In this document: positions 279-16,240 of the stretch, one piece after another
How positions within the stretch are numbered: the stretch's first letter is position 1
Layout: the number at the start of each line of letters is the position of its first letter
Origin: Gymnodinialimonas phycosphaerae
Lineage (GTDB): Bacteria > Pseudomonadota > Alphaproteobacteria > Rhodobacterales > Rhodobacteraceae
DNA length: 16,240 nt
Assembly (NCBI RefSeq): GCF_019195455.1
Contig: NZ_JAIMBW010000002.1
Coordinates: 1-16,240, forward strand
Direction of reading: 5' to 3'
The notes under the pieces: model-generated
Seen by the model: the letters and a program-made list of their open reading frames with translations, nothing else
The model's database searches: none
What the model was told of the DNA's origin: nothing
Position numbers and translations under genes: made by a program

Positions 279-3200
279 ATGCCATTTGAACCGGTAGGCT
301 CAAGTCTCGTACTCACGGTCTCCAGCGAGGCTGAACTGCTGGACGCCTATGAAACCCTGTCCAACTCGGAAGGGGGCGGGCGTATTGAATTGACCGAAGG
401 GGTGACGGGGCTGCGGCTTGAGTTGCGCGATGGTGGCAATGAGCCGGTCCACATCACCTCGGCCGACCCGGAAAACCCGGTGGCCCTGTCGGCGATCGTG
501 CTGCGCGATCTTGAAAATGTGCGGGTCAGCGAGGTGCATGTCGACAGCACGGGCACAGATTTCCCTGCCCAAAGCGGCGGCTTCGGCCTCAATGGCGTCG
601 AGGCGGTGGAGCTTTCCAACATCACGTTCACCGGCGGAGCGACGGAGTATTACAATCCCGACGATCCGGATTCCGTTCTGGGCATCGGTATGGGATCGAT
701 CCGCGACAGCAGTGATGTCGTCTTCAGCAACAACACGGCGTCGGGCTATCTCCATGGCACGTCCATCATGGAATCGCGCGATGTGAAGTTCTTGAGCAAT
801 GAATTCACCGAGTTCCAGGGCGACGGTCTGCGCATGGGGGGCGTTCAGAACGTGCTGGTCGAGGGCAACTATTTCCACGATTTCCTGGGCACCACGAACG
901 ATTTCACCCACGGCGACATGATCCAGCTATGGTCGACCAACGCCGAAATCGTCTCCAGCGACATCACCATCAACGGCAACATCCTCGATAGCGGCAATGG
1001 CAGCAGCTCCCAGAGCATCTGGATCCGCAACGAAACCTACGACAAGGGTCTGGATGACGGCTATATCTACAGCAATATCACGATCACCAACAATCTGATC
1101 CACAACAGCCATGTCCACGGGATCGCGGTGGGCCATGCCAATGGCGTCACGGTCGAGGACAACACGCTGCTGTGGAATGCCGCGACAGGCGATCCCCCGC
1201 AAATCGTTCTCTCAAGCAGTTGGAACGTCACGGCCAACAACAACATCACCTCTGATCTGAGGCTGCCTGCCGATGCCCAGTCCGAGGGCAATGTCATCTT
1301 GGACTACATCAACCCCTATGCTGATGACTATGTCGGCAATCACATCATCAATCCCTTCGCTGTCGGCGGCGCGGATCTGGCTGACCTGCGTTTGCGCCCC
1401 GATAGCGAATATCTGGGAACCGGTTCAGAGTTCAGCGATCCGCTCCTGACCAGCTATGGCGGGATCGAACCCGTGGTGGTGGTCTCTGTCGATGCAGAAG
1501 ATCCGCAGACGATTCAATTGGATGCGGGATTCTCGGTGGATGAGGACGGCTTCCTGAACGAGGCGAACTATACGTTTGAATGGGAGTTCCCCGATGGCTC
1601 GGTTCACGAAGGGGCGACGGTCAGCTACCAGTTCACGACCCCGGGAGAGCGCGAGGTGGAGCTGCGCATCCTGAACGACGGACAAGTCGTGGCCGAAGAA
1701 ACATTCGGGCTTGATGTGGAAGATGACACGTATCTCAGCTTGAGTGCGAAACATGGGTTTGAAGACCAGTCGGCCTATGACAGCGAAGTCTGGGTGTCCG
1801 GCTCCGAGGTGGTGGACGGTCCCGAGGGGCCAGCGTTCCGGATCGGTGGTGACGATTACTTCGCCGCGTCCTCCAGCAATGAGCAGCTGCACAGCTTGCA
1901 GGGGTTCGACCTGAACCTGAACATGAGCGTTATCGACGACAGCGCGGGGTCGTTCCTGCGCATGGGTTCGACCATGCGGGCCGAGGTGGAATGGGACGGC
2001 TCCGTCTGGTTCCAGCTGCGCACCGACGAGGGCACCTTCCGTGTCGACAGCGGCGACACCCATGTCGACGACGGCGCGTTCCACAATATCGCGGTAAGCT
2101 ATTCGCATGCCAACGGCACGCTGCAATTGCAGATCGACGGTGAAGTCGTGGATGAGGTCGAGGCCCATGGCACGACCCCGCCGATTTCCAGCAACAGCTT
2201 GATCATCGGCTCTCCCTGGAACGAGGTCGTCGACGCGCTGGTAAGCGATGTCACGTTTGCCGCCCATGCGGATCATTTTACCGTCACGCCGCCCGCGCCG
2301 ATTGTAGAGCCCAATGTTTTGCCGGCAGAAGTGGTAGAGGAAGAGGAAGTGGCAGAGGAAGGCCCGCCGCCGCCTGCGGACGACTTCGATGTGACCACGG
2401 CCGATCTTGCGGCGTTGAGCGCGGATCAGGGTCTGTCGAACCTGTCGAGTTCCGGCGTCGATCTGTGGAACTCCGGGGCGGAAATCGTCGACGGCCCCCA
2501 GGGCGAGGCCGTGCGGATCGGCGATGGTGACATGTTCGCCTTCTCGGGCCGTAGCGAGGACATGCACGGTCTGGACAGCTTCGGGTTCCAGATCGAGATG
2601 AGCGTTATCGACGACAGCGCGGGGTCGTTCCTGCGCATGGGTTCGACCATGCGGGCCGAGGTGAACCCGGACGGGTCGGTCACGTTCAACCTGCGCACCG
2701 ACGAGGGGTCTTTCGAGGTCGACAGCGGCGACACCCATGTCGACGACGGCGCGTTCCACAATATCGCGGTGAATTATTCGGATCTCAACGGCATGCTGCA
2801 GTTGCAGATCGATGGTGAGATCGTGGACGAGGTCGAGGCCTATGGCCTGACCACGTCGAGCACCAGCAACAGCCTGATGATCGGCTCCCGCTGGGAGCAG
2901 ACGGTCGACGCGCTGATCCATGACGTCAGCTTCACCTCGGACCCCGGCGACCCTAGCGACGCCTTTGGTCCTCTTGTCGGGTCTGACACTATCGTCACGC
3001 CGCCCGCGCCGATTATAGAGCCCAATGTTTTGCCGGCAGAAGTGGTAGAGGAAGAGGAAGTGGCAGAGGAAGGCCCGCCGCCGCCTGCGGACGACTTCGA
3101 TGTGACCACGGCCGATCTTGCGGCGTTGAGCGCGGATCAGGGTCTGTCGAACCTGTCGAGTTCCGGCGTCGATCTGTGGAACTCCGGGGCGGAAATCGTC

Positions 3201-3938
3201 GACGGCCCCCAGGGCGAGGCCGTGCGGATCGGCGATGGTGACATGTTCGCCTTCTCGGGCCGTAGCGAGGACATGCACGGTCTGGACAGCTTCGGGTTCC
3301 AGATCGAGATGAGCGTTATCGACGACAGCGCGGGGTCGTTCCTGCGCATGGGTTCGACCATGCGGGCCGAGGTGAACCCGGACGGGTCGGTCACGTTCAA
3401 CCTGCGCACCGACGAGGGGTCTTTCGAGGTCGACAGCGGCGACACCCATGTCGACGACGGCGCGTTCCACAATATCGCGGTGAATTATTCGGATCTCAAC
3501 GGCATGCTGCAGTTGCAGATCAATGGTGAGATCGTGGACGAGGTCGAGGCCTATGGCCTGACCACGTCGAGCACCAGCAACAGCCTGATGATCGGCTCCC
3601 GCTGGGAGCAGACGGTCGACGCGCTGATCCATGACGTCAGCTTCACCTCGGACCCCGGCGACCCCTTTGGTCAGGAACCGACAGCTGAGGTGGAAAGCAA
3701 AACGATGGGCATCGAGATGTCGCTGACATCGCCCACGGCGCTTGTTTCCACGCAGCAGGAGAGCGGGGATGTGCTGGAGGAGACAACCTCAACCGACGAG
3801 GATGACGCAGATCTGATCGCCGCGCTGTTCCTGCCGCCTGCTGGAGAAAACATCGAAGCCACACAACAGCAGAGCTTTGACGATTACGAAGATGAGAATG
3901 AGGAAGACGCTGGCATGGCCGCGGGAAGCTGGTGGTAG
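279..3938 (+). CDS. Large extracellular-type protein: parallel beta-helix + PKD-like + three LamG-like domains
   Basis: The product has 1219 residues. ATG 279 is preceded by GAAGGAA six bases upstream. Residues ~40-355 show the Asn-rich short-strand pattern of a right-handed parallel beta-helix (pectate-lyase/epimerase-like), a fold that usually binds or cleaves polysaccharide. Residues ~397-480 resemble a PKD domain (FEWEFPDGS, VSYQFTTPGEREVELRI). Three LamG/concanavalin-like modules follow at ~486-667, ~709-887 and ~947-1124, separated by Pro/Glu linkers (VVEEEEVAEEGPPPP). The acidic tail ends in GSWW. There is no classical N-terminal signal peptide and no RTX nonapeptide repeat, so export, if it occurs, would need a type I-like or other route; this is inference. 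Modules 2 and 3 are almost identical. It converges with the spike operon. A role in binding or modifying cell-surface or extracellular polysaccharide is plausible; the catalytic activity is unknown. Confidence 0.85.
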   Translation: MPFEPVGSSLVLTVSSEAELLDAYETLSNSEGGGRIELTEGVTGLRLELRDGGNEPVHITSADPENPVALSAIVLRDLENVRVSEVHVDSTGTDFPAQSGGFGLNGVEAVELSNITFTGGATEYYNPDDPDSVLGIGMGSIRDSSDVVFSNNTASGYLHGTSIMESRDVKFLSNEFTEFQGDGLRMGGVQNVLVEGNYFHDFLGTTNDFTHGDMIQLWSTNAEIVSSDITINGNILDSGNGSSSQSIWIRNETYDKGLDDGYIYSNITITNNLIHNSHVHGIAVGHANGVTVEDNTLLWNAATGDPPQIVLSSSWNVTANNNITSDLRLPADAQSEGNVILDYINPYADDYVGNHIINPFAVGGADLADLRLRPDSEYLGTGSEFSDPLLTSYGGIEPVVVVSVDAEDPQTIQLDAGFSVDEDGFLNEANYTFEWEFPDGSVHEGATVSYQFTTPGEREVELRILNDGQVVAEETFGLDVEDDTYLSLSAKHGFEDQSAYDSEVWVSGSEVVDGPEGPAFRIGGDDYFAASSSNEQLHSLQGFDLNLNMSVIDDSAGSFLRMGSTMRAEVEWDGSVWFQLRTDEGTFRVDSGDTHVDDGAFHNIAVSYSHANGTLQLQIDGEVVDEVEAHGTTPPISSNSLIIGSPWNEVVDALVSDVTFAAHADHFTVTPPAPIVEPNVLPAEVVEEEEVAEEGPPPPADDFDVTTADLAALSADQGLSNLSSSGVDLWNSGAEIVDGPQGEAVRIGDGDMFAFSGRSEDMHGLDSFGFQIEMSVIDDSAGSFLRMGSTMRAEVNPDGSVTFNLRTDEGSFEVDSGDTHVDDGAFHNIAVNYSDLNGMLQLQIDGEIVDEVEAYGLTTSSTSNSLMIGSRWEQTVDALIHDVSFTSDPGDPSDAFGPLVGSDTIVTPPAPIIEPNVLPAEVVEEEEVAEEGPPPPADDFDVTTADLAALSADQGLSNLSSSGVDLWNSGAEIVDGPQGEAVRIGDGDMFAFSGRSEDMHGLDSFGFQIEMSVIDDSAGSFLRMGSTMRAEVNPDGSVTFNLRTDEGSFEVDSGDTHVDDGAFHNIAVNYSDLNGMLQLQINGEIVDEVEAYGLTTSSTSNSLMIGSRWEQTVDALIHDVSFTSDPGDPFGQEPTAEVESKTMGIEMSLTSPTALVSTQQESGDVLEETTSTDEDDADLIAALFLPPAGENIEATQQQSFDDYEDENEEDAGMAAGSWW
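2282..2953 (+). repeat. LamG module direct repeat, copy A (672 bp)
   Basis: First copy of a direct repeat inside the beta-helix/LamG gene. It covers the Pro/Glu linker plus the second LamG-like domain. The other copy lies 711 bp downstream (237 codons, in frame). Only two base differences are visible over 672 bp, both changing an amino acid (Val to Ile in the linker, Asp to Asn in LQI-D/N-GEIV). This implies recent duplication or ongoing homogenisation. Confidence 0.95.
2993..3664 (+). repeat. LamG module direct repeat, copy B (672 bp)
   Basis: Second copy of the linker-plus-LamG direct repeat, in frame with copy A. The 39 bp between the copies encode a short Asp/Gly/Pro-rich linker that is not repeated. 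Unequal recombination between the copies would add or remove exactly one domain without breaking the reading frame. Confidence 0.95.
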
Positions 3939-3969: not shown

Positions 3970-6900
3970 TTATGGGGCAGCCAGTGCGGGCCCAAGGTTT
4001 TCGATCTCGGTCGGTGTCAGGTCCGCATAGAACAGCGCGGGCTGCGCAAGATCGAACACCCGATCAGATGCGGTGGATGAGCTGGGGATATCGTAGATGA
4101 CACGATCCCCGCTTGCCACGGAAGCGGCTGGCATCTTTGCCCACACGCGCCATGTCCCGCCGCCCATGTCAATCGCACCGCTATCGGTGAAGTCACCGGT
4201 GGGCTCGGTGCCTGCGGGTAGGGTGAGGCCGAACTCTCCGTCAAACGAAGCCCCTGTGATGTCCAGAAGACGCAGAAGCAGCGTCCCGCTGGTCTCTCCA
4301 AAACTCAACCGAACATCGCAACACGCGGTGACGACCGTGGAGCCGGAGGGCGCGGCCAGGGACAGGTTTCCATCCGCCGAGTCCGCGCGGGCATATCCGA
4401 CAGTCGGCTTCACCATCCAGTTGCTGACGACATTGGGTTGCAGGCCACCGTTACGACGCCATTGTGACGTGGCCCCGAAGTCTTGCCCTTGTTCGCTATC
4501 CGCGAAGGTGAGCGTCGGACCCATCGTGATGCCGGAGGCCATCGCGATCTCCTGGGCGCGTACCGGGATGCCTGGATAAGTCTCTAAACCGCTTTCTAGT
4601 GCCGAAATATGGGCCCGGAGGCCATCCCGGTAGAGACGTGCGTCGTAGTCAGGTGCGCCGTGCAGACAGAAGTCGCCATAGTTGCCGTCGGTGCCGAAGT
4701 GTACAACGTCACCGTTGGCGAACGCCTCTTCGGGCGTGACACGTACCACGCCTTCCCGCGCGCCGCCGGAGCCTGTGCCGGTGTCCTGGATGGTCACGGT
4801 GCCACGGTAGGCCGTGGGGTAGGTTGTGGCGTCTGCAAGGCCTGTGCGGAAGACGGGCCGCGCCGTGCGGTCGGTGTCGCCATTGCGATAGATCACGAAA
4901 CCCATCACGTCCTGCTGGTGCGGGCGGGGGCTCGGGACCGTCTCAGCGTCTTGAATACGCTGGGTCGTCAGGGTGGCCCCATCGGGGATTGCGTAGACGA
5001 AATCCGCGTAGCTGCCATCACTGGCCCATTCTACCCGGTCCAGCACGGGTGCATCATAATACCCTTGGGCGATCAGCAAGCCCGCGCCGAGGTCCTGGGC
5101 GAACAGGACCTGCCCGTCGCGTTCGGTGATGGAGGGGTGGATTGAACTTTGCGCGGGCTGCGCAAGCTGCGCCCCGTTCACGTAATCTCCAAAGCGCACC
5201 AACGCCGGAGAGATCAGCGCCCGCCCGGTGTTGGCGGCAGGCGCGTCGGTCAGGAAGTCGAGACGCTCCTGATAGGACGGTATCCCGTTTTGCGCGATCA
5301 TTCCCGTGATCGCATTGCCCGCCGTATCCGTCGTGTAGTTTGGTTGAGGAGGGTCGTAGGTGCCTTCTGCGTTCCGCACCTTGATCCCGGGCATCATCAT
5401 GTGAACCTTGGTACCCAGAGGTAGCAGGCCAAATCCGCGTTCGGTCGTGTCGATCAGGCAATGCTCAAGGGTATTGGCGACGAAGTCGAAATCCGAGCCA
5501 TCGGCCGCGACCCCGAAAAAGTGCGGTGCACGGCTTTCCCAGAGAGTCTGCGCGGCCCCGGCTTCGGCGTTCCACCAGTTGTAGACCACATCAGAGACGG
5601 ACCCAAAGGCCACGGAGGCCAGCTTGACGACCGCAACTTCTTCATCGAAATTCCGGCCCGTCTCATCATCGTCCATCATGTCGGTCATGTCGGTGCCGGA
5701 ACGCGTGCCATCCACCATTCGGAGGGGCATTCCGCCTGACCCGAGGTGCCAGAGGTTGGCGATGGCCACAAATCCCGGATTGATGTCTTGGTTGGCGATG
5801 GCGTCCGGATCCGCAGTTATCACACGGTAGCCTGTGTATCTGTCCTCGTGGCGGTCCTTGAGGGCATAGCGCGCGTCCACACCGGGAAGCAGTGTCGGCA
5901 TCTGGCCAGCGCGGGCGTCGAGGTTGCTGTTGGAGAAGACGCCGATCTTGTTCTCGGACTGGCCGAGGATCGTCATAACGGGAACCGAGGCCCAAATGCC
6001 CTCGATCCCACGCTGTTCCCGCCACGCTTCGATCATCCAATCATCGAATGCGGCGCTGGCATAGCCCACCCCTTCATACCCCCCGTTCTGAGAAATGATC
6101 TCGCCCATGTGGCGGTCGATGTAGTCGAAGTAGGTCTGGTGATCGGTGATGTAGCTGGAGCCAACCGCCCGCAAGAACAGCGTCAGCGGCACCATCGCCT
6201 TCATGGTGATGTGGCGATAGCCGGGTTTGTCGTCACCCCCGATGGAAACGCCCGGGTCATAGGTCAGCGCGTTTTCAAGCACTCCCAATTGATTCGTCTC
6301 GCCAGTGGGGAGAGCCTTGTTCGTCCCGAAATCAGAGCACCATTCCGGCCACCCCAACATCTTCTGCGGGTAGGGCGCAGAGATATACTGCGGGTCTATG
6401 TCGATGATCGCTTGCGTGACAGGCTGCACCCGGCGCGTCTCGGCCAAGGCAGTTGATCCGACAGGTGGCCAATTCACAGTTGAGCGGTTGTTGGTGGTCA
6501 CGACTGTCAGGTCACGTGCGCTCTCGAAGTGGCCAGGGATCAACTCGGAGGCGAGGCCCAGGATGACATCCGCCATCTGGCACCAGCCTCCGTTGGAGGT
6601 GACGATACCGCCTTGCAACATGCGCCATTTGAGGTCTTCCGCGACCTGACAGATCATGCGGGCCACCTCCAGGCGCTCTGCCTCGCTGCCGCCGCCGTAC
6701 ACAAGCCAGAAACCGGCGCGCGCGAAATCCTCGGCCACGGCGCCGCCATACCCCCCTTGGGGGCCAAGGTTGGTGGCGCGGGTCGCACTCAGATTGGTAT
6801 CGATCATGTGGATGACCAGATCGATACCCCCCAGGATCCCGGCGTATGTGGGCAGGTTGGCGTAGGAGTTGGCGACGGTATCAGGAAGGACGATATCGGA

Positions 6901-7527
6901 CGTGCGCCACGGCGGCGACTTGTCCGGGTTCGCCATGGCAGGGCGGGCGCTGTCGGCATGGACAGGGGCCAGGGGCACGACAGTCAAGATACCGTAGTTG
7001 GTGATGACCTCGCGCTGATCGTCCGTGTCAGGATCACAAACCGCCTTCACCAAAGAGGCAGGCGCATTCAGCGCAAGCGGCTGCCCCGTAGCCCCGGGAT
7101 CGACGTTGTGCACAGCCTCATAGGCCAGCGCCTCATTCGTATTGACCCGCCGTCCATCCCAGCCCTGATTCCGCCAGCGGCGCATGTTGCTGTCTTGCAT
7201 ATCCGCAAGGGAGGCTGTCGGGACCTGCGCCTGTCCGGGATCACGCATCATGCCGTGAAGGGGGGCATCAACATAAGAGGTGCCGTCAATCGTGCCGGAA
7301 TGCAGCACCGCCGTGGGTGTGGTCGCGGTCAAGGTGGTTTGGGCGCTTTGCTGCACCCAAGGCGAGCCATCCGCATAGAGTCCGTGTGCGCTGGTTCCCG
7401 CTACGCTGAAGCCAGCGTCACGATGCGTGAGCACGACGGTTTGCCCCGGCACGTCGGGTGCGTCCGGCAGGCCGGATTGGATCGGCATGCTTTGGGATGA
7501 AATGGAGTGGGACAGCGCGATACTCAT
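3970..7527 (-). CDS. Large spike/fibre-like protein downstream of spike-base gene (GTA head-spike GhsB-like position)
   Basis: The product has 1185 residues starting MSIALSHSIS. The start ATG (7527) overlaps the last base of the upstream stop (TGATG), indicating translational coupling. The open frame extends further upstream, but there it translates the small gene out of frame and gives Arg/His-rich nonsense, so the internal ATG is chosen. Most of the protein is an unrecognised globular region (motifs such as LPTYAGILGGIDLVIHMID and TSNGGWCQMADVILGLASEL). The last ~165 residues look like a beta-sandwich carbohydrate-binding or fibre-tip domain (TLLLRLLDITG, GGTWRVWAKMP, QPALFYADLT). Position directly behind an Rcc01079-family spike base suggests it is the spike that binds host surface polysaccharide, as the rcc01080 product does on RcGTA capsids. 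Sequence homology to rcc01080 itself could not be tested, and it might instead be a phage tail-fibre-like protein or an autonomous adhesin. Confidence 0.7.
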   Translation of the reverse strand: MSIALSHSISSQSMPIQSGLPDAPDVPGQTVVLTHRDAGFSVAGTSAHGLYADGSPWVQQSAQTTLTATTPTAVLHSGTIDGTSYVDAPLHGMMRDPGQAQVPTASLADMQDSNMRRWRNQGWDGRRVNTNEALAYEAVHNVDPGATGQPLALNAPASLVKAVCDPDTDDQREVITNYGILTVVPLAPVHADSARPAMANPDKSPPWRTSDIVLPDTVANSYANLPTYAGILGGIDLVIHMIDTNLSATRATNLGPQGGYGGAVAEDFARAGFWLVYGGGSEAERLEVARMICQVAEDLKWRMLQGGIVTSNGGWCQMADVILGLASELIPGHFESARDLTVVTTNNRSTVNWPPVGSTALAETRRVQPVTQAIIDIDPQYISAPYPQKMLGWPEWCSDFGTNKALPTGETNQLGVLENALTYDPGVSIGGDDKPGYRHITMKAMVPLTLFLRAVGSSYITDHQTYFDYIDRHMGEIISQNGGYEGVGYASAAFDDWMIEAWREQRGIEGIWASVPVMTILGQSENKIGVFSNSNLDARAGQMPTLLPGVDARYALKDRHEDRYTGYRVITADPDAIANQDINPGFVAIANLWHLGSGGMPLRMVDGTRSGTDMTDMMDDDETGRNFDEEVAVVKLASVAFGSVSDVVYNWWNAEAGAAQTLWESRAPHFFGVAADGSDFDFVANTLEHCLIDTTERGFGLLPLGTKVHMMMPGIKVRNAEGTYDPPQPNYTTDTAGNAITGMIAQNGIPSYQERLDFLTDAPAANTGRALISPALVRFGDYVNGAQLAQPAQSSIHPSITERDGQVLFAQDLGAGLLIAQGYYDAPVLDRVEWASDGSYADFVYAIPDGATLTTQRIQDAETVPSPRPHQQDVMGFVIYRNGDTDRTARPVFRTGLADATTYPTAYRGTVTIQDTGTGSGGAREGVVRVTPEEAFANGDVVHFGTDGNYGDFCLHGAPDYDARLYRDGLRAHISALESGLETYPGIPVRAQEIAMASGITMGPTLTFADSEQGQDFGATSQWRRNGGLQPNVVSNWMVKPTVGYARADSADGNLSLAAPSGSTVVTACCDVRLSFGETSGTLLLRLLDITGASFDGEFGLTLPAGTEPTGDFTDSGAIDMGGGTWRVWAKMPAASVASGDRVIYDIPSSSTASDRVFDLAQPALFYADLTPTEIENLGPALAAP

Positions 7528-7787
7528 CAGAGCATCACAACGATATCGGTTGCCGTGGTGCCAGTGGCCCAGATCCGCGTGGCGCGGACTGGAAAGCCTA
7601 TGCCGGCTGCGATGTAGACGGTGGCGGTCGAGCCGCCGGTCGTCGTGATCCGAACGCTGCCTGACTGCGCCACATTGATGGCACGCGAAGGCATGGTCAG
7701 ATCTGTGCCGTCGTTTGGCGTAACCGGCACGAGGAGTGTGGCGGGGCTTTCGAGGCCAATGGCGTGGTTGTCGAATGGATCGGGCAT
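7527..7787 (-). CDS. Spike base protein, RCAP_Rcc01079 (GTA head spike GhsA) family
   Basis: 86 residues. ATG 7787 has a good AGGAGA ribosome-binding site about eight bases upstream. The layout MPDPFDNHAIGLESPATLLVPVTP, then NDGTDLTMPSRAINV, a Gly/Thr-rich beta region, and an ending in P-VRATRIWATGTTATDIVV fits my recollection of the small spike-base family typified by Rhodobacter capsulatus rcc01079. Those proteins sit on capsid vertices of the gene transfer agent and anchor a polysaccharide-binding spike. The gene is first in a two-gene operon with the 1185-residue protein. No capsid, portal, terminase or tail gene is visible in this window, so the pair is outside a GTA or prophage cluster; in R. 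capsulatus the spike genes are also separate from the main cluster. The family call is from pattern memory. Confidence 0.75.
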   Translation of the reverse strand: MPDPFDNHAIGLESPATLLVPVTPNDGTDLTMPSRAINVAQSGSVRITTTGGSTATVYIAAGIGFPVRATRIWATGTTATDIVVML

Positions 7788-8027: not shown

Positions 8028-8738
8028 TCACGGGTCGGCAGGGCGCCCGCGGGGGTCGATCAGCATGGCCAGCACCCAACCCGCAAGGAACCCCCCAAGG
8101 TGTGTCTGCCACGCCAGTTGACCATCAAGGGCCCAATACATCGCGATGTTGATCGCGATCAGCAGGGCGGCCACCCGCGCAATCGGCCACAACCCGGCGC
8201 GGGCTGTGAACCGATCCACGTAGGCCCAGGCCATCAGCCCCCCCGCAAGGCCGAACAAGGCCCCCGATGCGCCGACCATGGGCTGGATCGTCGTTGCCAA
8301 AAGCCCGTAGCCCGCCGCCCCGCCTATGGCGGTGCCAAGGTACAGCACAATGAACCGGAGCCGACCCACACGGGCGATGATTTCGGCCCCCAGCGACCAC
8401 AGGGTGATCATGTTCATGGCCAGATGCCCCGGTCCGCCATGCAGGCCCGCGTAACTGAGAAACATCGTATAGGGTTGCAGGGTGTAATTGGGATCCCACC
8501 CCTGCAGCAGGCCCGGCCAGAACCCATACCATTCATAGGCGGACTGGCGCAGGCGGGAGCTGCCCCAAAGACCATAGTCACTGCCCAGAAGCCCCAGTTC
8601 GACAATACTCATGAGGGCGACCATCGTCGCCAGAAGCCACGGCGCGGAGGGGTGGTATAGAGGCGCGGATGACGGCAGCGTCGGCCCGGCAGACAGGGTC
8701 TCGGCTTCATCGGTGGTGGTCTTGCGCGCGCGTGCCAT
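8028..8738 (-). CDS. Rhomboid family intramembrane serine protease
   Basis: 236 residues from ATG 8738 (MARARKTTTD); an in-frame TTG at 8756 would add six residues, and neither has a clear Shine-Dalgarno site. Rhomboid hallmarks are present in order: the GHLAMN motif in TM2 (H105 and N109), the catalytic serine in GASGALFG (S158), and the catalytic histidine in QTHLGGFLAGW (H213). Six hydrophobic segments fit the minimal bacterial rhomboid fold in the inner membrane. Rhomboids cleave single transmembrane segments of membrane proteins; the substrate here is unknown. It lies between a glycosyltransferase and the spike operon on the same strand, with ~180 bp and 240 bp gaps, so co-transcription is uncertain. 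The 240 bp to the spike-base start holds no convincing gene. Confidence 0.92.
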   Translation of the reverse strand: MARARKTTTDEAETLSAGPTLPSSAPLYHPSAPWLLATMVALMSIVELGLLGSDYGLWGSSRLRQSAYEWYGFWPGLLQGWDPNYTLQPYTMFLSYAGLHGGPGHLAMNMITLWSLGAEIIARVGRLRFIVLYLGTAIGGAAGYGLLATTIQPMVGASGALFGLAGGLMAWAYVDRFTARAGLWPIARVAALLIAINIAMYWALDGQLAWQTHLGGFLAGWVLAMLIDPRGRPADP

Positions 8739-8866
8739 TGGACAGACTTGACGCAACGGGTGCGGGGTCGCAAGGGATTGGATGTCTGCCTCCGTGTCAG
8801 GGCGGCCGGGGCGACGCTTTATCGTGGGGCGGATTGGGCCCGGATCCGGCGGTTCTTCAAACGGAG

Positions 8867-8918: not shown

Positions 8919-9851
8919 CTAGTATCCATCGATCCGCTGGTACGGGTTCGATTGCAGGTTGAACAGCCCACGCAGATATCCCCAAGCGCTGGCCAGGCTG
9001 AGCAGGCCTTTCGTCATCTGGTCCCGGCCCCTGCGCCGCCCAAAGAGCATCTGCCCCGTTCCCTGAACGATGCGCCCCAAACCCAGATACAGACACTGTC
9101 CGACCCGTGGTACAACGTAGCGCAGCTTGGATTGGCCGTGCATCCGCTCGATCATCACCCCACCACTGGCGCGGCGGATATTGCGCTGGATATGCCAGCT
9201 CAGGGTGGAGCGGTTGTCGGGATATTCCTCGAAGACCCGCGCCTCTTCGACCCAGATGACCTGTCCGCCTTTGCGGCTGAAGCGCAAAAAGAATTCCGTA
9301 TCCGACCCGCCGGTATATCGCATCTGTTCGTTCAATCGCATCGCCAGCCCGTCGGGGCGGAACAGGCGGGCTGCGACCATTGTGTTGTTGGTCGCGGCCG
9401 CGGGCAGGCGCGTCCCCGTCGCATGGCCTGCCCGGCCCGAGTGGGGCAGCCAGCCAGGGGCATTGGCCGGGTAGTCGCGTAATACTGGACCGGTCAGCAC
9501 CTCGGCGTCGGGATAGGTGTTGCGGGCTGCGGTGAAGGTTGTCAGCCAATCCTCAGCCACCCATTCGTCGTCATCGATGAAGATCAACCAGTCAAATCCG
9601 ATGCTCAGGGCCGTTTCTATCGCCCGGTTTCGGGCAAAGGGGATGCCCGGCTCGACCTCTTGGGCGTAATGGATATCCAGCCGATCCGTGAAGCTCATGA
9701 CGATATCGCGCGATTGCACCTCAGTATCGTTTTCGACCACCACGACGAAAACCGGCTCGGACATGCGGGCGATCGCAGGGCACAGGGAGGAGAGGCAGCG
9801 CGCCAGCATCTGTGGCCGTCCCCGCGTGCAGAGGGTAATGCAAATGCTCAT
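8919..9851 (-). CDS. Family 2 glycosyltransferase (ExoM-like)
   Basis: 310 residues. ATG 9851 was chosen because AGGAGC sits about seven bases upstream; an in-frame upstream start would add 11 residues without support. GT-A fold signs: beta1 MSICITLCTRGRPQMLARCL, acidic residue in VVVVENDTE, the PGIPFARNRAIE segment, then the metal-binding DDDE at ~93-96 (FIDDDEW), and a C-terminal acceptor region with GGSDTEFFLRF. The start resembles succinoglycan-type ExoM transferases, which add sugars to lipid-linked exopolysaccharide units at the cytoplasmic face of the inner membrane. Donor and acceptor sugars cannot be read from sequence. It is 180 bp upstream of the rhomboid gene on the same strand and about 190 bp from the start of the divergent gene fragment. 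Confidence 0.9.
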   Translation of the reverse strand: MSICITLCTRGRPQMLARCLSSLCPAIARMSEPVFVVVVENDTEVQSRDIVMSFTDRLDIHYAQEVEPGIPFARNRAIETALSIGFDWLIFIDDDEWVAEDWLTTFTAARNTYPDAEVLTGPVLRDYPANAPGWLPHSGRAGHATGTRLPAAATNNTMVAARLFRPDGLAMRLNEQMRYTGGSDTEFFLRFSRKGGQVIWVEEARVFEEYPDNRSTLSWHIQRNIRRASGGVMIERMHGQSKLRYVVPRVGQCLYLGLGRIVQGTGQMLFGRRRGRDQMTKGLLSLASAWGYLRGLFNLQSNPYQRIDGY

Positions 9852-9988
9852 CGGCGCTCCTGTGCCTGGCTTTAATCCGTGCAATCGATAGCCTGGATCA
9901 CCCAGGGCTCCAAGATATTGGTCGTACCCCGTAAATGCGGCGGTTTCTCGACGTCTGCAAAGATCGTCGATGCGGACGTCTCGCGACC

Positions 9989-10042: not shown

Positions 10043-10435
10043 ATGACACGCCCCCGGATCGCGATCTGTTTCTTCGGGATTACACGATCGCTCCGCCATA
10101 CAATCGAGACGATCGAAGCCAATGTTCTGGCCCCGGCCTGCAAGCAGGGCGCGGTGACGGTCTTGTCGCATTTCTTCGAGCAGACCCAGATCGACAATCC
10201 CCGGTCCGGTGAGAGCGGTACGTTGGACGTGGAGGAGCACAAACTCCTGCCCAATGACTGGCTTGAGCTGGAGCCCCCCGGAACCGGGCTTGAGCAGTGG
10301 GATTTCGAAGGGTTGAAACAGCATGGGGACCGCTGGAATGACGATTTCCGCTCGTTGCGCAACCTGATGCAGCAACAGCATTCGTTGCATCGGGTGACGG
10401 GGGCTGCACTTCAGACTGACCCTGATCTGGTGATC
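10043..10435 (+). pseudogene. 5' fragment of an unidentified (polysaccharide-cluster type) gene, 3' end deleted
   Basis: ATG 10043, with AAAGGAT upstream and an extended -10 promoter, opens a normal-looking protein of about 131 residues (MTRPRIAICFFGITRSLRHT, continuing to DPDLVI). Beyond that the frame stays open to 11068 only because it reads the antisense of the glycosyltransferase on the other strand: the composition shifts to Ser/Arg-rich and loses structure. The FFGITRSL start resembles uncharacterised proteins of exopolysaccharide or capsule loci, where full proteins are longer, but I cannot name the family. The fragment probably makes a chimeric, non-functional product if translated. 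See the junction at 10429-10435. Confidence 0.65.
10429..10435. other. Probable deletion junction joining two 3'-truncated convergent genes
   Basis: The bases GGTGATC fit both genes: GAT-CTG-GTG-ATC (DLVI) of the plus-strand gene and, on the minus strand, ATG-ATC-ACC (MIT) of the glycosyltransferase, where related enzymes would continue Pro-Asp-Ala. On either side of this point the plausible protein sequence switches strand. A short shared sequence suggests microhomology-mediated deletion of the two 3' ends and everything between; the exact base is inferred. Confidence 0.5.
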
Positions 10436-10766
10436 ATCGGCCGATACCCCATCTGGGCCGCGCGCAGGCAGAGATCGGCCTCCTCCCCATACATGAAGTA
10501 TTTCAGATCGAACCCCCCCAGCCTCTGCCACAACTCCCGCTGGATCAGCAGAAAACACCCGACCACGATGTCGACCTCACGCACGCTGTCGCGCTTCCAG
10601 CCGCCGATGGCCTCTGGGTTGAAAAACTCGGATCCGCGAAACAGCGCGTCCAACCGGATCGCGCGGCATAACATGCTCCACGGCGTGATCCGGTTCCAGC
10701 ACGAGGCAATGTTCAGGCTGCCGTCCGCAAACACCGTGCGCCCGCCCCAGATGCCCGCCTGCGGGG

Positions 10767-10784
10767 TTTCGCGCGCGAAACCGA
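10767..10784. other. parS-like 18-bp palindrome, site 1 (inside glycosyltransferase coding sequence)
   Basis: GGTTTCGCGCGCGAAACC is a perfect palindrome identical to the copy between parA and parB. It lies within the truncated glycosyltransferase, encoding Gly-Phe-Ala-Arg-Glu-Thr. Identity with the par-locus copy argues that it is a ParB-binding site or a recruited one. Confidence 0.6.
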
Positions 10785-11144
10785 CCAAATTGTCCACCGC
10801 CCCCGCATGGCATTCCGTATCGGGGTTGAGCAGCAGCAGAAACTCGGTGTCCACCTGGGCTGCCACCACGTTGTTGGCCTTGGCAAAGCCCAGATTTTCG
10901 TCGGAACGGATCAGCTCGACCCGGTCCTCATGGGCAAAGGCCTCGGCGATTGCATCGGCAGAGCCATCGCTGGACGCGTTATCCAGAACCACCAGCCTGA
11001 AGGATGTCTGCCGCGTCGTCTCCAGACACGTGCGGATCGCGGTCAGGGTCAGGTCGCGGGTGTTATAGCTGACCATGATGATGGTCAGGATTGGATCGGC
11101 AGACGTCATGTCAAATGTAACTCTCTCGCTTAAGAGTGCCTCGC

Positions 11145-11160
11145 GTTTCACACGCGAAAC
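11145..11160. other. parS-like palindrome, site 2 (degenerate)
   Basis: GTTTCACACGCGAAAC matches the 16-bp core of the other sites with two changes in the left half. It lies upstream of the truncated glycosyltransferase start, between it and the 35-bp repeat array. Confidence 0.5.
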
Positions 11161-11221
11161 GGTCCGTGTTCCAGTGGTTTTTGGTGAGGGGGTCTTCTGT
11201 TTCGCACCCATCCTTCGCACC

Positions 11222-11370
11222 TTGAGCGGATTCCTTATGCGCTACCGCTGCGCTACTTGAGCGGATTCCTTATGCGCTACCGCTTCGCTACTTGAGCGGG
11301 CTCTTTATGCGCTACCGCTGCGCTACTTGAGCGCGTTCTTTATGCGCTACCGCTTCGCTACTTGAGCGCG
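11222..11370. repeat. 35-bp tandem repeat array at the 3' end of repA
   Basis: Four full units start at 11222, 11257, 11292 and 11327 and a partial fifth at 11362, spaced exactly 35 bp. Each unit begins TTGAGCG, has a variable 6-7 bases, then TTATGCGCTACCGCT, G or T, CGCTAC. The G/T choice alternates unit by unit. The last unit overlaps the repA stop codon region. There are no variable spacers. The CGCT-ACTTG-AGCG portion can form small hairpins, extended to five-base stems where the copies carry GCGCT..AGCGC. Function is unknown: candidates are a Rep-binding array, a terminator-like block or a product of slippage. Confidence 0.95.
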
Positions 11371-12365
11371 TGTTTCTTCACCCATCCCAAAAACGCCTTG
11401 TCGGGCGAACGCAGGCGCGGACGCCCCGTCGCCGCCCAAACCCCACGCCAGTTTGCCTCCAGCGCATAGACGTCCCAGCCCGGTGCGATCGCGCGGGCCT
11501 GCTCCAGGGCGTCCGGCGACAGCACCGGGCCTGTGCCAATATCCTCGACCACCGCGCGGGGCGTGATGCGGATCAGATCACCGGGCTCTTCGACCAGCTC
11601 GTAATCGGGCAGGCGATCGCTCTTGATGATCTCGCGCAACATCGCGCGGAAGACCCTGATGGGCGAATTAGAGCCTGATTTTTTCGCCAGCACGGCCACA
11701 GATACCTGCCAGGCGGGCTGCGCCCCGCAATGCTTGCGCGCGATCTCGTAGAGCCGCCGCTCCAGGGGTTTGCGCAAAGAGAAATACTCGCGGCTCAGCG
11801 TCAGGACAGACTTGGACAGCACCGCATTATAGAGCCAATCGGACAACGTCACCGACACGCTGATCATCCGGCCGCCGCCCCTTTTTGTGTCCCGTGTCTT
11901 GCGCACGATCTCCCAGGCCTCGATCAGACCGAAGCCCGAGGTCACCTCAACCGGGTCCGCCTTGGGGCCGGTCGCGATGTTGGTGGTGATCCGCGTGCCC
12001 GCCAGCCGCTCGAACGCGTCCTTGAGGCGGCGGTACGCATCGCCCGAGGTCTCGCGGCCCGTGGCCAGCAGCAGGTCATGGGCCGTCAGCGTCAGCGTCC
12101 GCGAGGTCGCGCGGCCGACGTTGATCGCCGCCATCAGCTGGCTGATGCAGAAGATCAGGATATCGGCGTCGAAGATCGTGGCGCGGCCCTTCACGCTTGG
12201 CGTGATGGTGATTTCGGTGCCGCGATGCTCGTAGGACAGGATCCGGCGATCGGGCCGGGTGGAAAGCGAGAAGATCGGATGCTCCATGCTCGCCAGATCG
12301 TGCTTGGGCACGGCCGCGAAGAAATCGCAGACGAAGAAATCGCGCGTGGTGGGTTGGGGGGTCAT
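11358..12365 (-). CDS. repA: RepA-type plasmid replication initiator (RPA family)
   Basis: 335 residues from ATG 12365, preceded by AGGAGAGG about ten bases upstream. The N-terminus (RDFFVCDFFAAVPKHDLASMEHPIFSLS) and the core (ILIFCISQLMAA, LLLATGRETSGDAYRRLKDAFERLAGT, LSREYFSLRKPLERRLYEIARKHCG) fit the replication initiator protein A family common on alphaproteobacterial, especially Rhodobacterales, plasmids. The tandem winged-helix arrangement implied binds iterons and opens the origin together with DnaA. The ending, WVKKHALK, is basic. It is divergent from parA across a 531-bp region with iterons and a DnaA box. A leader hairpin (12398-12412) lies just upstream and a 35-bp repeat array overlaps its 3' end. 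Length is normal for the family and no damage is seen. Confidence 0.92.
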   Translation of the reverse strand: MTPQPTTRDFFVCDFFAAVPKHDLASMEHPIFSLSTRPDRRILSYEHRGTEITITPSVKGRATIFDADILIFCISQLMAAINVGRATSRTLTLTAHDLLLATGRETSGDAYRRLKDAFERLAGTRITTNIATGPKADPVEVTSGFGLIEAWEIVRKTRDTKRGGGRMISVSVTLSDWLYNAVLSKSVLTLSREYFSLRKPLERRLYEIARKHCGAQPAWQVSVAVLAKKSGSNSPIRVFRAMLREIIKSDRLPDYELVEEPGDLIRITPRAVVEDIGTGPVLSPDALEQARAIAPGWDVYALEANWRGVWAATGRPRLRSPDKAFLGWVKKHALK

Positions 12366-12656: not shown

Positions 12657-12853
12657 GTCTCAAAGAATGCCCTGCAAGATGTTGAAGCCATGGACCTTTC
12701 TCAAAGCGTGTCCGTTCCGTAACTGAATCAATAACAGAAAAATAACAGGGCTATTCAGCGCAAAGCCCCTGCCCTACCCTGAAGTCCCATGGCTCCCCCC
12801 TTGTTTGCTTAGAAAAAGCGCTTTGATGTGCGGACATTGCTTGCATGTTACAG

Positions 12854-12884
12854 GTTTTCGCGTACCTTAAGGAAAACATATAAC
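12854..12884 (+). promoter_or_regulatory. Candidate parA promoter/operator
   Basis: An imperfect inverted repeat, GTTTTC (12854-12859) and GAAAAC (12872-12877), encloses the palindrome CCTTAAGG. It is followed by TATAAC (12879-12884), a possible -10, 12 bp before the parA ATG. The position suits autoregulation by ParA. The -35 is weak and the short distance to the ATG makes the -10 call doubtful. Confidence 0.3.
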
Positions 12885-12896
12885 ACGAGGGCGGAA

Positions 12897-14279
12897 ATGA
12901 GCAGCTTGCCTCCCTATTTCAACATCTCGCCCGAGAAGGCGCTGGACGATCTGGGCGATCCCAAGGGGACAGCGGATTTCTCTGCCTTGGCCGATGCCTG
13001 TGCCAAAGGTCGCGCTGATCTGTCCAGTCGGGGCCTGGATGAAACCGGCACCCGCACCCTGCGCCTGTTTTCCACCTGGGAGATCACCAAATACCTGATC
13101 CCCGTGGCCCCTGCCCATTTCCGCCGGGTGTTGCGCCAGAACCCCAACTTGCCCCAAGGCACATCCGAGACCGAGGGAGGGGCCAAGTGGTTTACCCTCG
13201 ACGACGTGTTGCGCCTGCGCGCCCATTTCGGAGCAGAGGGGTCCAAGGCGAAGGAGTACCTGCCCTACCGACCCAAAGGCCTGCCCGCCAAGATCGTTGC
13301 CGTGGCCAATTTCAAGGGCGGCGTGGGCAAGACCTCCACCGCCGCGCATCTGGCGATGTCAGCGGCGCTGGATGGCTACAAGGTGCTGGTGGTGGATCTG
13401 GACAGCCAGGGCTCCATGACATCGATTTTCGGCGGCAAGGTCGAAGATGAATGGGGCACGGTCTTCCCGCTGCTGGCGCGCCACTACGCGCAGGCGCTGA
13501 GGGCCGAGAACCAGCGCCGCATGGACCGGGGCGAAGCGCCGCAACCGCTGGATGAGACGCTGTCCGAGGCGGTGGATATGACGGCGCAGGACGTGATCCG
13601 TTCCACCCATTGGCCGAACATCGACCTGATCGGCGCGCAGCTGAATTTGTACTGGTCCGAATTTCAGATCCCGGTCTGGCGCATGGCCACGCGCGGCTGG
13701 AAGCTTTGGGAGGCTCTGTCCGGCAGTTTAGAGGCTGACGGCGTGCTGGATGACTATGACATCGTCTTCGTCGATACGCCCCCTGCCCTGGGCTACCTCA
13801 CGATCAATGGACTGGCGGCGGCGGATATCCTTCTGGTGCCGTTTGGCGCCTCGTTCCTGGAGTTCGACAGCACCGGGCGCTTTTTCGACATGCTCCACGC
13901 CACCTTCGCCTCCATCGAGGAGGGGGAAAATATGGCCGCCCGCGCCTTGGGCCGCGACGAGATGCGGTTTGAGTGGGACGCGGTGCGCGCGGTCCTCACG
14001 CGCTATGACGGCAGCCAGCAGGCGGAAATGGCGGCCTTGATCAGTGCGCATATGGGCGAGGTTCTCAGCCCCCACCGCCAGGACTTCACCGCGCTGATCG
14101 GCCAGGCGGGTGAGCAGGTCCACGGTATCTACGAGGCCGATTACCGCGATTTCAACCGCGAAACCTATGCGCGCGGCCGCGCCACCTTTGATGAGACCTA
14201 TGCGGGCTTCAAGAAGCTGCTTCTGGGGATCTGGCGCCGGGAAGAATTGGACGCGGCGGCGGAACAGGCGGCGGAGTGA
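12897..14279 (+). CDS. parA: ParA-type plasmid partition ATPase
   Basis: 460 residues. ATG 12897 follows GAGGG by about six bases; upstream in-frame GTG 12828 would add 23 unsupported residues. A DNA-binding N-terminal region (~50-112, with STWEITKYLIPVAPAHFRRVL and WFTLDDVLRLRAHF) suggests a type Ia ParA that represses its own operon. The deviant Walker A KGGVGKTS is at 140-147, VDLDSQGS at 166-173, and Walker B DIVFVDTPPALG at 288-299. It binds ATP and DNA nonspecifically and moves ParB-bound plasmid copies over the nucleoid. It starts a parA-parB operon and is divergent from repA. Length (about 400-480) is normal for large plasmid ParA proteins. The 172-bp gap to parB holds a parS-like palindrome. 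Confidence 0.95.
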   Translation: MSSLPPYFNISPEKALDDLGDPKGTADFSALADACAKGRADLSSRGLDETGTRTLRLFSTWEITKYLIPVAPAHFRRVLRQNPNLPQGTSETEGGAKWFTLDDVLRLRAHFGAEGSKAKEYLPYRPKGLPAKIVAVANFKGGVGKTSTAAHLAMSAALDGYKVLVVDLDSQGSMTSIFGGKVEDEWGTVFPLLARHYAQALRAENQRRMDRGEAPQPLDETLSEAVDMTAQDVIRSTHWPNIDLIGAQLNLYWSEFQIPVWRMATRGWKLWEALSGSLEADGVLDDYDIVFVDTPPALGYLTINGLAAADILLVPFGASFLEFDSTGRFFDMLHATFASIEEGENMAARALGRDEMRFEWDAVRAVLTRYDGSQQAEMAALISAHMGEVLSPHRQDFTALIGQAGEQVHGIYEADYRDFNRETYARGRATFDETYAGFKKLLLGIWRREELDAAAEQAAE

Positions 14280-14339
14280 AGGGGAAGTTCATTCCTGGCC
14301 CAACGCCCTTTTGGGTACCTGGAGGCCGGGGCACCGAAC

Positions 14340-14357
14340 GGTTTCGCGCGCGAAACC
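14340..14357. other. parS-like 18-bp palindrome, site 3 (between parA and parB)
   Basis: GGTTTCGCGCGCGAAACC, a perfect palindrome, lies 61 bp after the parA stop and 94 bp before parB. It is identical to site 1. Location inside the par operon makes it the strongest centromere candidate. Confidence 0.75.
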
Positions 14358-14451
14358 GCAACAGCCTGGCGCCCATGGTAGGATGCAAAATGTCTATTCG
14401 GGGCCTGTCGCGCGTTGCGCTGTCTTGGGCCGGATATCAGGAGGGGCCATT

Positions 14452-15468
14452 ATGGCAAAACGCAAACGATTGAGCCCGGCAATGATCGCGGGGCAGGGGA
14501 CAGATCAGGCTCTAACGGGGGCATTAGACCCTATTTCCAACCCACCGATCGCCCGTGTTGCAGGCGACGCGGCCTCCCATGCCGCCGTTCAGGAACTGGC
14601 CGATGAACTGACCCGCGCCCGCGTCGAGGGGCGGTTGGTCCAAGACATCGCGCTGGATCAGATCGACGAGACCCACCTGACCCGCGACCGGATTGCGACC
14701 GATGCCTCAGACATGGCGGCGCTGGAGGCCTCTATTGAGGCGCGGGGGCAGCAGATGCCGATCGAGGTGGTGGATCTGCGCGGCAGCAGCGAAGCGGTAG
14801 CGCATGGAACTCAAGCCAAGCGTTTCGGGTTGATCTCTGGCTGGCGCAGGCTCGCGGCGATCAAGCGGTTGGCCGACCGGGATCCAGATCGCTTTACCAC
14901 CGTCCGCGCCGTCCTGCGCCGTCCTGACACCGCCGCCGAGGCTTACCTTTCGATGGTCGAGGAGAACGAGCTGCGTGTGGGGCTGTCCTATTATGAACGC
15001 GCGCAAGTCGCCGCGCGGGCCAGTGACATGGGGGTGTTTGAAGGCTCTGCCGAGGCGGTCCAGAACCTGTTTCCCACCGCGTCCAAGGCGAAGCGGTCGA
15101 AGATTAACGCCTTCGTTCGCCTGTTCCGCGTGCTTGACCCGGTGCTGACCTTCCCCGAAGCGATCCCGGAGCGATTGGGCCTGCGTTTGGCCAAGGCGCT
15201 TGATGCGGGGCAGGGGGCGCTGCTCTACAAGGCCCTGTCGGCGGTCCGTGCCGAGACGGCCCAAGAGGAGCAGGCCCGGATCGAGAAGGTCTTACAGGCA
15301 AATTCAGGCTCTAAAACGCCTAATAGGGTCGTGCACGCTTCTTATCCGGGGGGGGTGGAGTTGAGCCAAACCCGGGGAGGGCTGAAACTGAGTGGGCCGG
15401 GAGTGACCGCCGAGTTGCAACGGGATTTGGAAACCTGGCTCGCCGCGCGCCAAAAGACCGCGCCCTAG
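14452..15468 (+). CDS. parB: ParB-type plasmid partition protein
   Basis: 338 residues. ATG 14452 has a strong AGGAGGGG site just upstream; the open frame extends back into parA but that part is out-of-frame parA sequence. A basic N-terminus (MAKRKRL) is followed by a ParB/RepB-like domain: LDQIDETHLTRDRI (~68-81), LEASIEARGQQMPIEV (91-106), the arginine patch SGWRRLAA (129-136), and ENELRVGLSYYERA (171-184), then a helix-turn-helix region around 190-250 and a C-terminal dimerisation-type tail. It binds parS and loads around it, stimulating ParA. The arginine patch is SGWRR rather than GERR, as in plasmid RepB/ParB variants. Its stop codon directly abuts a parS-like palindrome. It lies downstream of parA, probably in one transcript. 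Confidence 0.92.
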   Translation: MAKRKRLSPAMIAGQGTDQALTGALDPISNPPIARVAGDAASHAAVQELADELTRARVEGRLVQDIALDQIDETHLTRDRIATDASDMAALEASIEARGQQMPIEVVDLRGSSEAVAHGTQAKRFGLISGWRRLAAIKRLADRDPDRFTTVRAVLRRPDTAAEAYLSMVEENELRVGLSYYERAQVAARASDMGVFEGSAEAVQNLFPTASKAKRSKINAFVRLFRVLDPVLTFPEAIPERLGLRLAKALDAGQGALLYKALSAVRAETAQEEQARIEKVLQANSGSKTPNRVVHASYPGGVELSQTRGGLKLSGPGVTAELQRDLETWLAARQKTAP

Positions 15469-15505: not shown

Positions 15506-16240
15506 ATGACCTCTGATCTCGCCATTATCATCCCGCATTTCAACGACGTGGACCGCCTTACGCGGTGCCTTGCCGCATTGGAACCCCAGGACCGGACAGG
15601 CGTGGAGGTGGTGGTTGCCGACAATGCCTCGACGCAGGATCTGGAGGGCGTCAAGACGCGCTTCGATTGGGTGCAATTCGTTGTGCAGCCTGAGGCCGGG
15701 GCAGGGCCGGCCCGCAACGCGGGCGTCGCGGCCAGCACGGCACCTTGGTTGGCGTTTCTGGACGCGGATTGCGTGCCCGGGCCCGATTGGGTTTCGCGGG
15801 CGCTACACAACACGTTGGGTCGCCCGGAAATCGTGACAGGCGGCCGCGTCGAGGTGTTCGATGAAACCCCGCCGCCACGCTCGGGCGCCGAGGCGTTCGA
15901 GACGGTCTTCGCCTTCGATCAAGAGGGCTATATTCGCGACAGGGGGTTTTCGGTAACCGCCAATCTGGTCGCATCGCGCGCGATGTTTGACCGGACAGGG
16001 CCGTTTCTGGTGGGGGTTTCGGAGGATCGGGACTGGTGCCTTCGGGCGACGGCAAAGGGCGCCCATCTTTTCTATGCGCCAGATCTGAGGGTGGGCCATC
16101 CCACGCGGACCGATTGGCCGTCGCTGGAGCGGAAGTGGCAACGGATGAACTATGAGACCTTTGGCTTTTATCTGCGCAATGCGCGGTTCGTCCTCGCCGC
16201 CCGCGGGAAATGGGGGCTGCGTGCGTTTCTGATGCCGTTA
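15506..16240 (+). CDS. Family 2 glycosyltransferase, 3' end outside window
   Basis: 245 residues are visible from ATG 15506 (MTSDLAIIIPHFNDVDRLTRCL), still open at the right edge. GT-A motifs: VVVADNAST (~36-43), PEAGAGPARNAGVAA (62-76), the metal-binding DADC (86-89), and the acceptor-side EDRDWCLRATAKGAHLFYAPD with the catalytic ED. The region after ~215 (KWQRMNYETFGFYLRNARF) looks like the start of membrane-associated C-terminal helices. It likely adds a sugar to a lipid-linked exopolysaccharide or O-antigen precursor at the inner membrane; the sugar is unknown. The ribosome-binding site is weak (TAAGACG). It lies 37 bp after parB with a parS-like palindrome in the gap, so ParB spreading could affect its promoter, or it may be read through from parAB. 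Confidence 0.88.
   Translation, partial: MTSDLAIIIPHFNDVDRLTRCLAALEPQDRTGVEVVVADNASTQDLEGVKTRFDWVQFVVQPEAGAGPARNAGVAASTAPWLAFLDADCVPGPDWVSRALHNTLGRPEIVTGGRVEVFDETPPPRSGAEAFETVFAFDQEGYIRDRGFSVTANLVASRAMFDRTGPFLVGVSEDRDWCLRATAKGAHLFYAPDLRVGHPTRTDWPSLERKWQRMNYETFGFYLRNARFVLAARGKWGLRAFLMPL

Follow-up and report, generated by a model that had tools for sequence, protein, structure and literature searches.

Receptor use by gene-transfer agents (GTAs) is known mainly from Rhodobacter capsulatus. The head spikes of its GTA (RcGTA) are reported to bind the capsule, and their genes to adjoin the capsule genes and to be co-regulated with them (PMC10218006). The RcGTA head fibre is described as having alternating hydrophobic residues at its N-terminus, which fill pockets in the pentamer of the base protein (PMC7296036), and the head-spike genes as being triggered by GafA together with CtrA (PMC9638019). 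Published accounts also relate the R. capsulatus spike genes to the phages RcapMu and RcapNL (PMC8601537), and report that RcGTA-like clusters coevolved with their hosts, which is indicative of vertical inheritance (PMC6854486). Here we analyse a pair of genes, encoding a spike base protein and a putative head-spike fibre, on a 16,240-bp contig of Gymnodinialimonas phycosphaerae (NZ_JAIMBW010000002.1, contig C2; hereafter the window, i.e. the whole stretch that was analysed). With a probability of roughly 0.6, we consider this pair to be the head-spike (receptor-binding) module of the GTA encoded on the host's chromosome, carried on a small plasmid. We found no description of plasmid-borne GTA spikes in the literature, judged mostly by titles and abstracts.

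The spike base and the putative fibre

The 86-residue product of the first gene matched the family NF048002 ('spike base protein, RCAP_Rcc01079 family') over residues 3-85 with 102.5 bits, where the curated cut-off is 28 bits. It also matched the protein structure 6tb9 ('Head spike base Rcc01079') over residues 3-81, i.e. nearly its full length (E = 3.9e-14), and PHROG 12296 ('tail fiber protein'; E = 1.4e-23). Judged by sequence, these matches are far above chance, and they bear out an earlier note on this DNA, which had assigned the protein to the Rcc01079 family from its features. The base keeps an LESP motif holding Glu12, a residue that contacts the capsid in RcGTA (presumed numbering, from sequence comparison only); this position varies within the spike base family.

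The ATG of the second gene overlaps the stop codon of the base gene by one base (CTCTGATGAGT, TGATG), and its frame continues to position 3970, giving a protein of 1185 residues. Both open reading frames (ORFs) and their coupling are as the note had described them. For the 1185-residue protein, Pfam gave no match above cut-off, and PHROG, NCBIfam and PDB (the latter searched up to E = 10) gave no sequence match. Domain-based naming was dropped, since no family matched above cut-off; the protein was kept as a putative fibre because of its position, its coupling to the base, its N-terminus and its relatives. A search of 5.8 billion proteins, with 7992 candidates scored, yielded two relatives. 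Residues 28-550 are about 30% identical to a 'carbohydrate esterase' of Microcystis phages, and residues 517-1002 are 39% identical to a protein encoded next after the spike base of a Pseudorhodobacter plasmid. Further relatives are located on one viral contig and, more distantly, at one bacterial locus (L170), while the 60 other genomes searched yielded none.

The N-terminus of the fibre, MSIALSHSI, is by inspection not a signal peptide. It resembles the anchor of the RcGTA head fibre imperfectly, and fits a loose anchor pattern, [ILVMF][GAS][ILVMF][GAS] near the protein start. Among fibres coupled to a spike base, the loose pattern was present in 8 of 11 on plasmids, 41 of 54 in named genomes and 23 of 43 in a sample of the host's family, versus 59 of 1160 control ORFs, which are not confirmed genes. 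A strict version of the pattern was present in 6 of 11, 34 of 54 and 21 of 43 coupled fibres, respectively, versus 41 of the 1160 control ORFs. Hence, the anchor is about 10- to 15-fold enriched in coupled fibres.

The rest of the fibre varies much more. Among 261 pairs of loci whose bases are 60-69% identical, only 28 share a full-length homologous fibre and 108 share any detectable fibre similarity. These results imply that the base and the anchor are kept while the body of the fibre is exchanged. Pfam domains found in 47 coupled fibres include SASA esterase (six members), GDSL (three), LamG (three), Ig (two), CBM (one) and a glycine-rich domain (one). DUF2213 and terminase domains were also found, in one member each, which indicates that one or two of the 47 ORFs are other phage genes.

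The host chromosome and the spike base in related genomes

The host genome consists of two contigs (4.32 Mb), and contains a GTA_TIM domain and a chromosomal RcGTA-type cluster. Eight of the ten ORFs scanned in this cluster matched known components: portal, protease, capsid, connector, head closure, RcGTA_tape, distal tail and hub. The RcGTA_tape match (NF058675) scored 352 bits with a cut-off of 220, and the capsid scored 616 bits against the RcGTA capsid Rcc01687, while the remaining ORFs, of 483 and 145 residues, had no NCBIfam match. One HK97-type capsid and one portal were found genome-wide, both within the GTA cluster (other capsid types were not searched).

The earlier note had suggested that the plasmid supplies alternative spikes to a chromosomal GTA, and had asked whether such a GTA has a spike pair of its own. 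The GTA cluster is indeed present. However, an alignment profile of the spike base gave one match in the entire genome, i.e. the base in the window, and on the chromosome PHROG 12296 matched twice, at chance level only (E = 0.26 and 0.70). Hence, our search for a spike pair on the chromosome, to which the plasmid pair could be a supplement, found none. The plasmid pair appears to be the only head-spike set in the genome, rather than an 'alternative' one.

We surveyed 199 genomes of the host's family, including the host itself. The spike base was detected in 70 of these genomes and GTA_TIM in 172. GTA_TIM occurred in 67 of the 70 spike-bearing genomes versus 105 of the 129 other genomes (p = 0.004).

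The survey gave 79 spike base loci besides that of the window, for which 77 surrounding stretches were obtained, some of them cut by contig ends. As a control we used 38 stretches (40 were requested, but two did not exist) from contigs of at least 688 kb, which were somewhat longer than the test stretches. At least one polysaccharide gene was located within about 8 kb of the spike base at 49 of the 77 loci, versus 2 of the 38 controls (p = 4e-10), and at least two such genes at 38 loci versus one control (p = 1e-7). The linkage persisted on contigs of at least 790 kb, where 12 of 17 spike base loci had at least one polysaccharide gene (p = 1e-6) and nine had at least two (p = 3e-5). Hence, the association with polysaccharide genes is not only a plasmid effect. 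All these counts were obtained with home-made profiles trained on plasmid loci; after removal of hits at least 45% identical to the training set, 44 and 33 of the 77 loci remained, versus 2 and 1 of the 38 controls.

Viral contigs gave a different picture. None of the 80 that we inspected, the best 80 of 326 with the spike base family and shorter on average, had polysaccharide genes near the spike base. Conversely, phage structural genes were recognised on 33 of the 80 viral contigs and at only three of the 77 family loci, although the latter number is an underestimate because the profiles flag only 33 of the 80 viral contigs. In bacterial genomes, the spike family is generally linked to polysaccharide loci. 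The glycosyltransferases that the earlier note saw near the pair (three on the plasmid) are thus part of a family-wide association.

A similar linkage was seen on plasmids. In PLSDB, 29 plasmids carry the base gene, of which 26 are typed as non-mobilizable. We examined the annotation within 8-9 kb of the base in 27 of these records, 26 of which were annotated. Polysaccharide or sugar genes were annotated on 22 of the 26 plasmids, although the evidence was weak for three (L020, L307 and L317). Two plasmids, L311 and L308, have phage genes at the spike locus, in the case of L308 together with a GT61 gene. Neither type of gene was annotated on L015, which is cut by the record end, or on L314, where our profiles detected two GT4-like frames; the unannotated plasmid L306 gave no profile hits. 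On nine plasmids (L016, L017, L019, L312, L313, L314, L315, L317 and L319; six from Sulfitobacter, two from Roseivivax and one from Marinovum) the spike base gene directly follows parA-parB, as if it were part of the plasmid backbone.

Within the host's genus, GTA_TIM was present in all 13 genomes and the spike base in three. The carriers are the window plasmid, a plasmid that is presumably p1 of Jannaschia sp. CCS1 (G201), and two contigs of 326,594 and 56,281 bp of a third genome (G209). Two of these three other loci have polysaccharide genes, while none were seen at the third (G209:C5). The base was the only searched gene of the window that matched the stretches around the other loci of the genus.

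The plasmid and its other genes

The frame of a GT2 glycosyltransferase spans the two ends of the contig (294 open codons; 291 residues from its Met; PF00535, E = 1.8e-20). The contig is therefore a circular plasmid, and there is no flanking DNA in which a prophage could hide. It carries RPA and ParAB genes, and the plasmid location that the earlier note had considered probable is supported. Capsid, portal, terminase and tail-assembly genes were not recognised anywhere on the plasmid, in scans of nine ORFs against Pfam and NCBIfam and ten against PHROGs. The note had reported their absence from the window and had allowed for capsid or tail genes just outside it, but the circle leaves no outside. 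On these grounds we reject an ordinary prophage. The features of the plasmid are as follows.

15506..16240, forward strand: third GT2 glycosyltransferase, N-terminal part (PF00535, across the contig ends)
1..138, forward strand: C-terminal part of the same glycosyltransferase
279..3938, forward strand: protein of 1219 residues with a right-handed beta-helix, PKD and three LamG domains (Pfam)
3970..7527, reverse strand: putative head-spike fibre (GhsB-like), 1185 residues, overlapping the stop codon of the base gene at TGATG
7501..7527, reverse strand: N-terminus of the fibre, MSIALSHSI, candidate anchor (from the anchor described in PMC7296036 and our pattern counts)
7527..7787, reverse strand: spike base protein, Rcc01079 family (GhsA-like), 86 residues (NF048002, PDB 6tb9, phrog_12296)
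8028..8756, reverse strand: rhomboid-family protease (Pfam), with weak similarity to rhombosortase (27 bits versus a cut-off of 84)
8919..9884, reverse strand: GT2 glycosyltransferase (PF00535)
10411..11220, reverse strand: GT2 glycosyltransferase with an apparently truncated C-terminus (PF00535 and sequence)
11178..11387, forward strand: 35-bp tandem repeats, probably iterons of the plasmid origin (repeat family D3)
11358..12365, reverse strand: replication initiator protein A (RPA; PF10134, E = 7e-95)
12828..14279, forward strand: partition ATPase of the ParA/RepA type (PF13614, E = 1.5e-29; TIGR03453, E = 4e-57, below cut-off; phrog_164)
14110..15468, forward strand: ParB-type partition protein (TIGR03454, E = 1.7e-15, below cut-off; phrog_4715, E = 1.3e-14); the coordinates are the ORF bounds and the true start is probably internal

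Several other observations concern these neighbouring genes. The gene of the 1219-residue protein contains two 300-nt stretches within positions 2279-3289 with 99% DNA identity (repeat D2), suggesting a duplication or conversion event in the recent past. Two other loci (L008 and L021) also have matches to the beta-helix/LamG protein near their spike bases. The rhomboid protease, with its weak similarity to rhombosortase, shares the plasmid with this large repeat protein, and one might speculate that the latter is its substrate. Furthermore, a forward-strand ORF at 10043-10460 (beginning MTRPRIAICFFGITRSLRHT) converges with the reverse-strand GT2 gene at 10411-11220, and both seem to be cut near 10,430-10,450. 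Their meeting point is probably a deletion scar in the sugar genes of the plasmid. Upstream of some spike base genes at other loci (e.g. L154, L160 and L204) the motifs GTGTTGCG and CAGCGTACG recur; both are absent from the window.

Interpretation and comparison with known systems

If the pair is indeed the head-spike module of the chromosomal GTA, five base proteins would dock on a capsid vertex during GTA production, and one long fibre would plug into the base pentamer via its N-terminus. The remainder of the fibre would bind or trim polysaccharide on the outside of the recipient cells, and glycosyltransferases like those encoded on the plasmid plausibly make or modify this polysaccharide. 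As the base and the anchor are retained and only the fibre body is exchanged, plasmids and chromosomal polysaccharide loci may then serve as interchangeable receptor-binding cassettes by which one and the same GTA is re-aimed. We infer from this scheme that the pair is expressed during GTA production and incorporated into the particles, as well as the sugar that it binds and the benefit that it brings. The recurrent pairing on related plasmids and chromosomes hints that such plasmids may help to decide which cells receive the DNA, and if spikes travel as interchangeable cassettes that are linked to polysaccharide loci and partly borne by plasmids, the partners in DNA exchange within a large bacterial group could change with a single plasmid. 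This reading ties polysaccharide plasmids to GTAs, and leads us to expect that spikes and sugars form matched pairs.

Several results weigh against this assignment to the GTA. Three of the 70 spike-bearing genomes lack GTA_TIM. In genome G116, which has no GTA_TIM match, the spike base (L172) lies within a polysaccharide locus on a contig of 4.32 Mb; this genome may contain a GTA that has diverged, or its spike may serve a different purpose. No polysaccharide gene was seen at 28 of the 77 family loci. A coupled ORF, within +5 bp of the base, is present at only 43 of these loci, and at 20 no ORF was found within 60 bp of it. The fibre of the window fails the strict anchor pattern, with a His at the third hydrophobic position, and the loose pattern is equally enriched in viral contigs (24 of 49), so that it marks a spike rather than a GTA. 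Residues 99-324 of the 1219-residue protein match PHROG 2234 ('tail spike protein'; E = 2.7e-9); right-handed beta-helices are common also among non-phage proteins. No CtrA half-sites (TTAAC/GTTAA) occur in the 250 bp upstream of the pair, and our search for a promoter signal common to the pair and the GTA cluster gave no convincing motif. The tie between the bound sugar and the three GT2 genes of the plasmid, one of which looks truncated, is likewise our inference.

The phylogeny of the base also adds to the doubt. We calculated a tree of 189 bases with FastTree, based on 86 positions and with modest support. The base of the window was placed in a clade (support 0.76) that comprises 28 tips, of which 27, including the window itself, are bacterial and one is viral. 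This viral tip, L219, is the one nearest to the window and represents a contig that carries a capsid gene. The R. capsulatus base was placed next to RcapNL and viral contigs. Furthermore, the base of the window scores about equally against RcapNL (59 bits, tblastn) and Rcc01079 (56 bits, phmmer). Hence, the pair in the window belongs to the family, yet the R. capsulatus pair has closer counterparts elsewhere. The equivalence with R. capsulatus that the earlier note had drawn holds for membership of the family and not for any special closeness to Rcc01079. The intermingling in the tree suggests that the spike base was probably exchanged between phages and bacterial loci more than once.

A tentative extension of the GTA reading, which we hold to be possible but doubtful, is that the plasmid is a transferable cassette for self-recognition. 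It would encode a surface sugar as well as the GTA spike by which this sugar is gripped, such that the particles of carriers favour other carriers. Gain, loss or swap of the plasmid would then switch the DNA-exchange group of the cell.

Alternatively, the pair may consist of surface or polysaccharide-modifying proteins that descend from a phage spike and were co-opted without any particle, for instance as a released esterase or an adhesin. The strong linkage to polysaccharide genes, the SASA or GDSL esterase domains of some fibres, the many base genes without a coupled fibre, and G116, with a spike base and polysaccharide genes and no GTA_TIM, would all fit such a role. We nevertheless consider it unlikely, given that the base is conserved (in RcGTA it docks on capsids), that the anchor for the base pentamer is strongly enriched in coupled fibres, that the N-terminus of the fibre resembles this anchor instead of a signal peptide, and that nearly all carriers have GTA_TIM.

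Service to a phage, either as a host-range module for a superinfecting or helper phage or as a cassette in transit between phages and plasmids, seems to us rather improbable. The family is common as a tail or head fibre pair in phages such as RcapNL and RcapMu and in viral contigs, the nearest tip to the base is viral, the fibre has relatives in Microcystis phages and on a viral contig, and two of the 26 annotated plasmids are phage-like at the spike locus. However, the plasmid has no recognised gene for a capsid, portal, terminase or tail assembly, the GTA cluster is the sole place in the genome where an HK97-type capsid and portal were found, and the linkage with polysaccharide genes at 49 of 77 bacterial loci is entirely lacking from the 80 viral contigs. 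A decayed prophage or phage-plasmid remnant without present function is very improbable: the family probably stems from phages, the scar between two truncated genes suggests loss of plasmid DNA and the replication protein also matches a PHROG family, but both ORFs are intact and coupled, the spike base recurs in 70 of 199 genomes and on 29 plasmids, and no phage structural gene was recognised at 74 of the 77 loci, albeit with the insensitive profiles that flag 33 of the 80 viral contigs.

Among the known systems, GhsA/GhsB of RcGTA (Rcc01079/Rcc01080) share with the pair in the window the same base family, the coupled order of base and fibre (at locus L078 of strain SP108), a hydrophobic fibre N-terminus that in the window resembles the anchor imperfectly, nearby polysaccharide genes and an RcGTA-type capsid in the host. 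They differ in several respects. The R. capsulatus spikes are chromosomal, whereas the pair in the window is on a 16-kb plasmid. The RcGTA fibre is given as 325 residues (PMC7296036), in contrast to the 1185 residues of our putative fibre, which has no PDB sequence match and was not directly compared with Rcc01080. The R. capsulatus base groups with phages, the window base with mainly plasmid and chromosome loci. Finally, control by GafA and CtrA is described for R. capsulatus (PMC9638019), while no such signal was found upstream of the pair in the window.

The phages RcapNL (gp29-gp30) and RcapMu (57-58) have bases that are 42-43% identical to that of the window, directly followed by another structural gene. 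In these phages the pair ends a complete structural module, whereas the plasmid has no such module. The plasmid itself resembles the polysaccharide plasmids of Rhodobacterales, also known as 'biofilm' plasmids, in its RPA-type replicon, its ParAB and its glycosyltransferase genes, and its rep/par DNA is about 76% similar to that of Phaeobacter plasmids. What may set it apart from these polysaccharide plasmids, together with the 29 plasmids in PLSDB, is that it carries a spike base.

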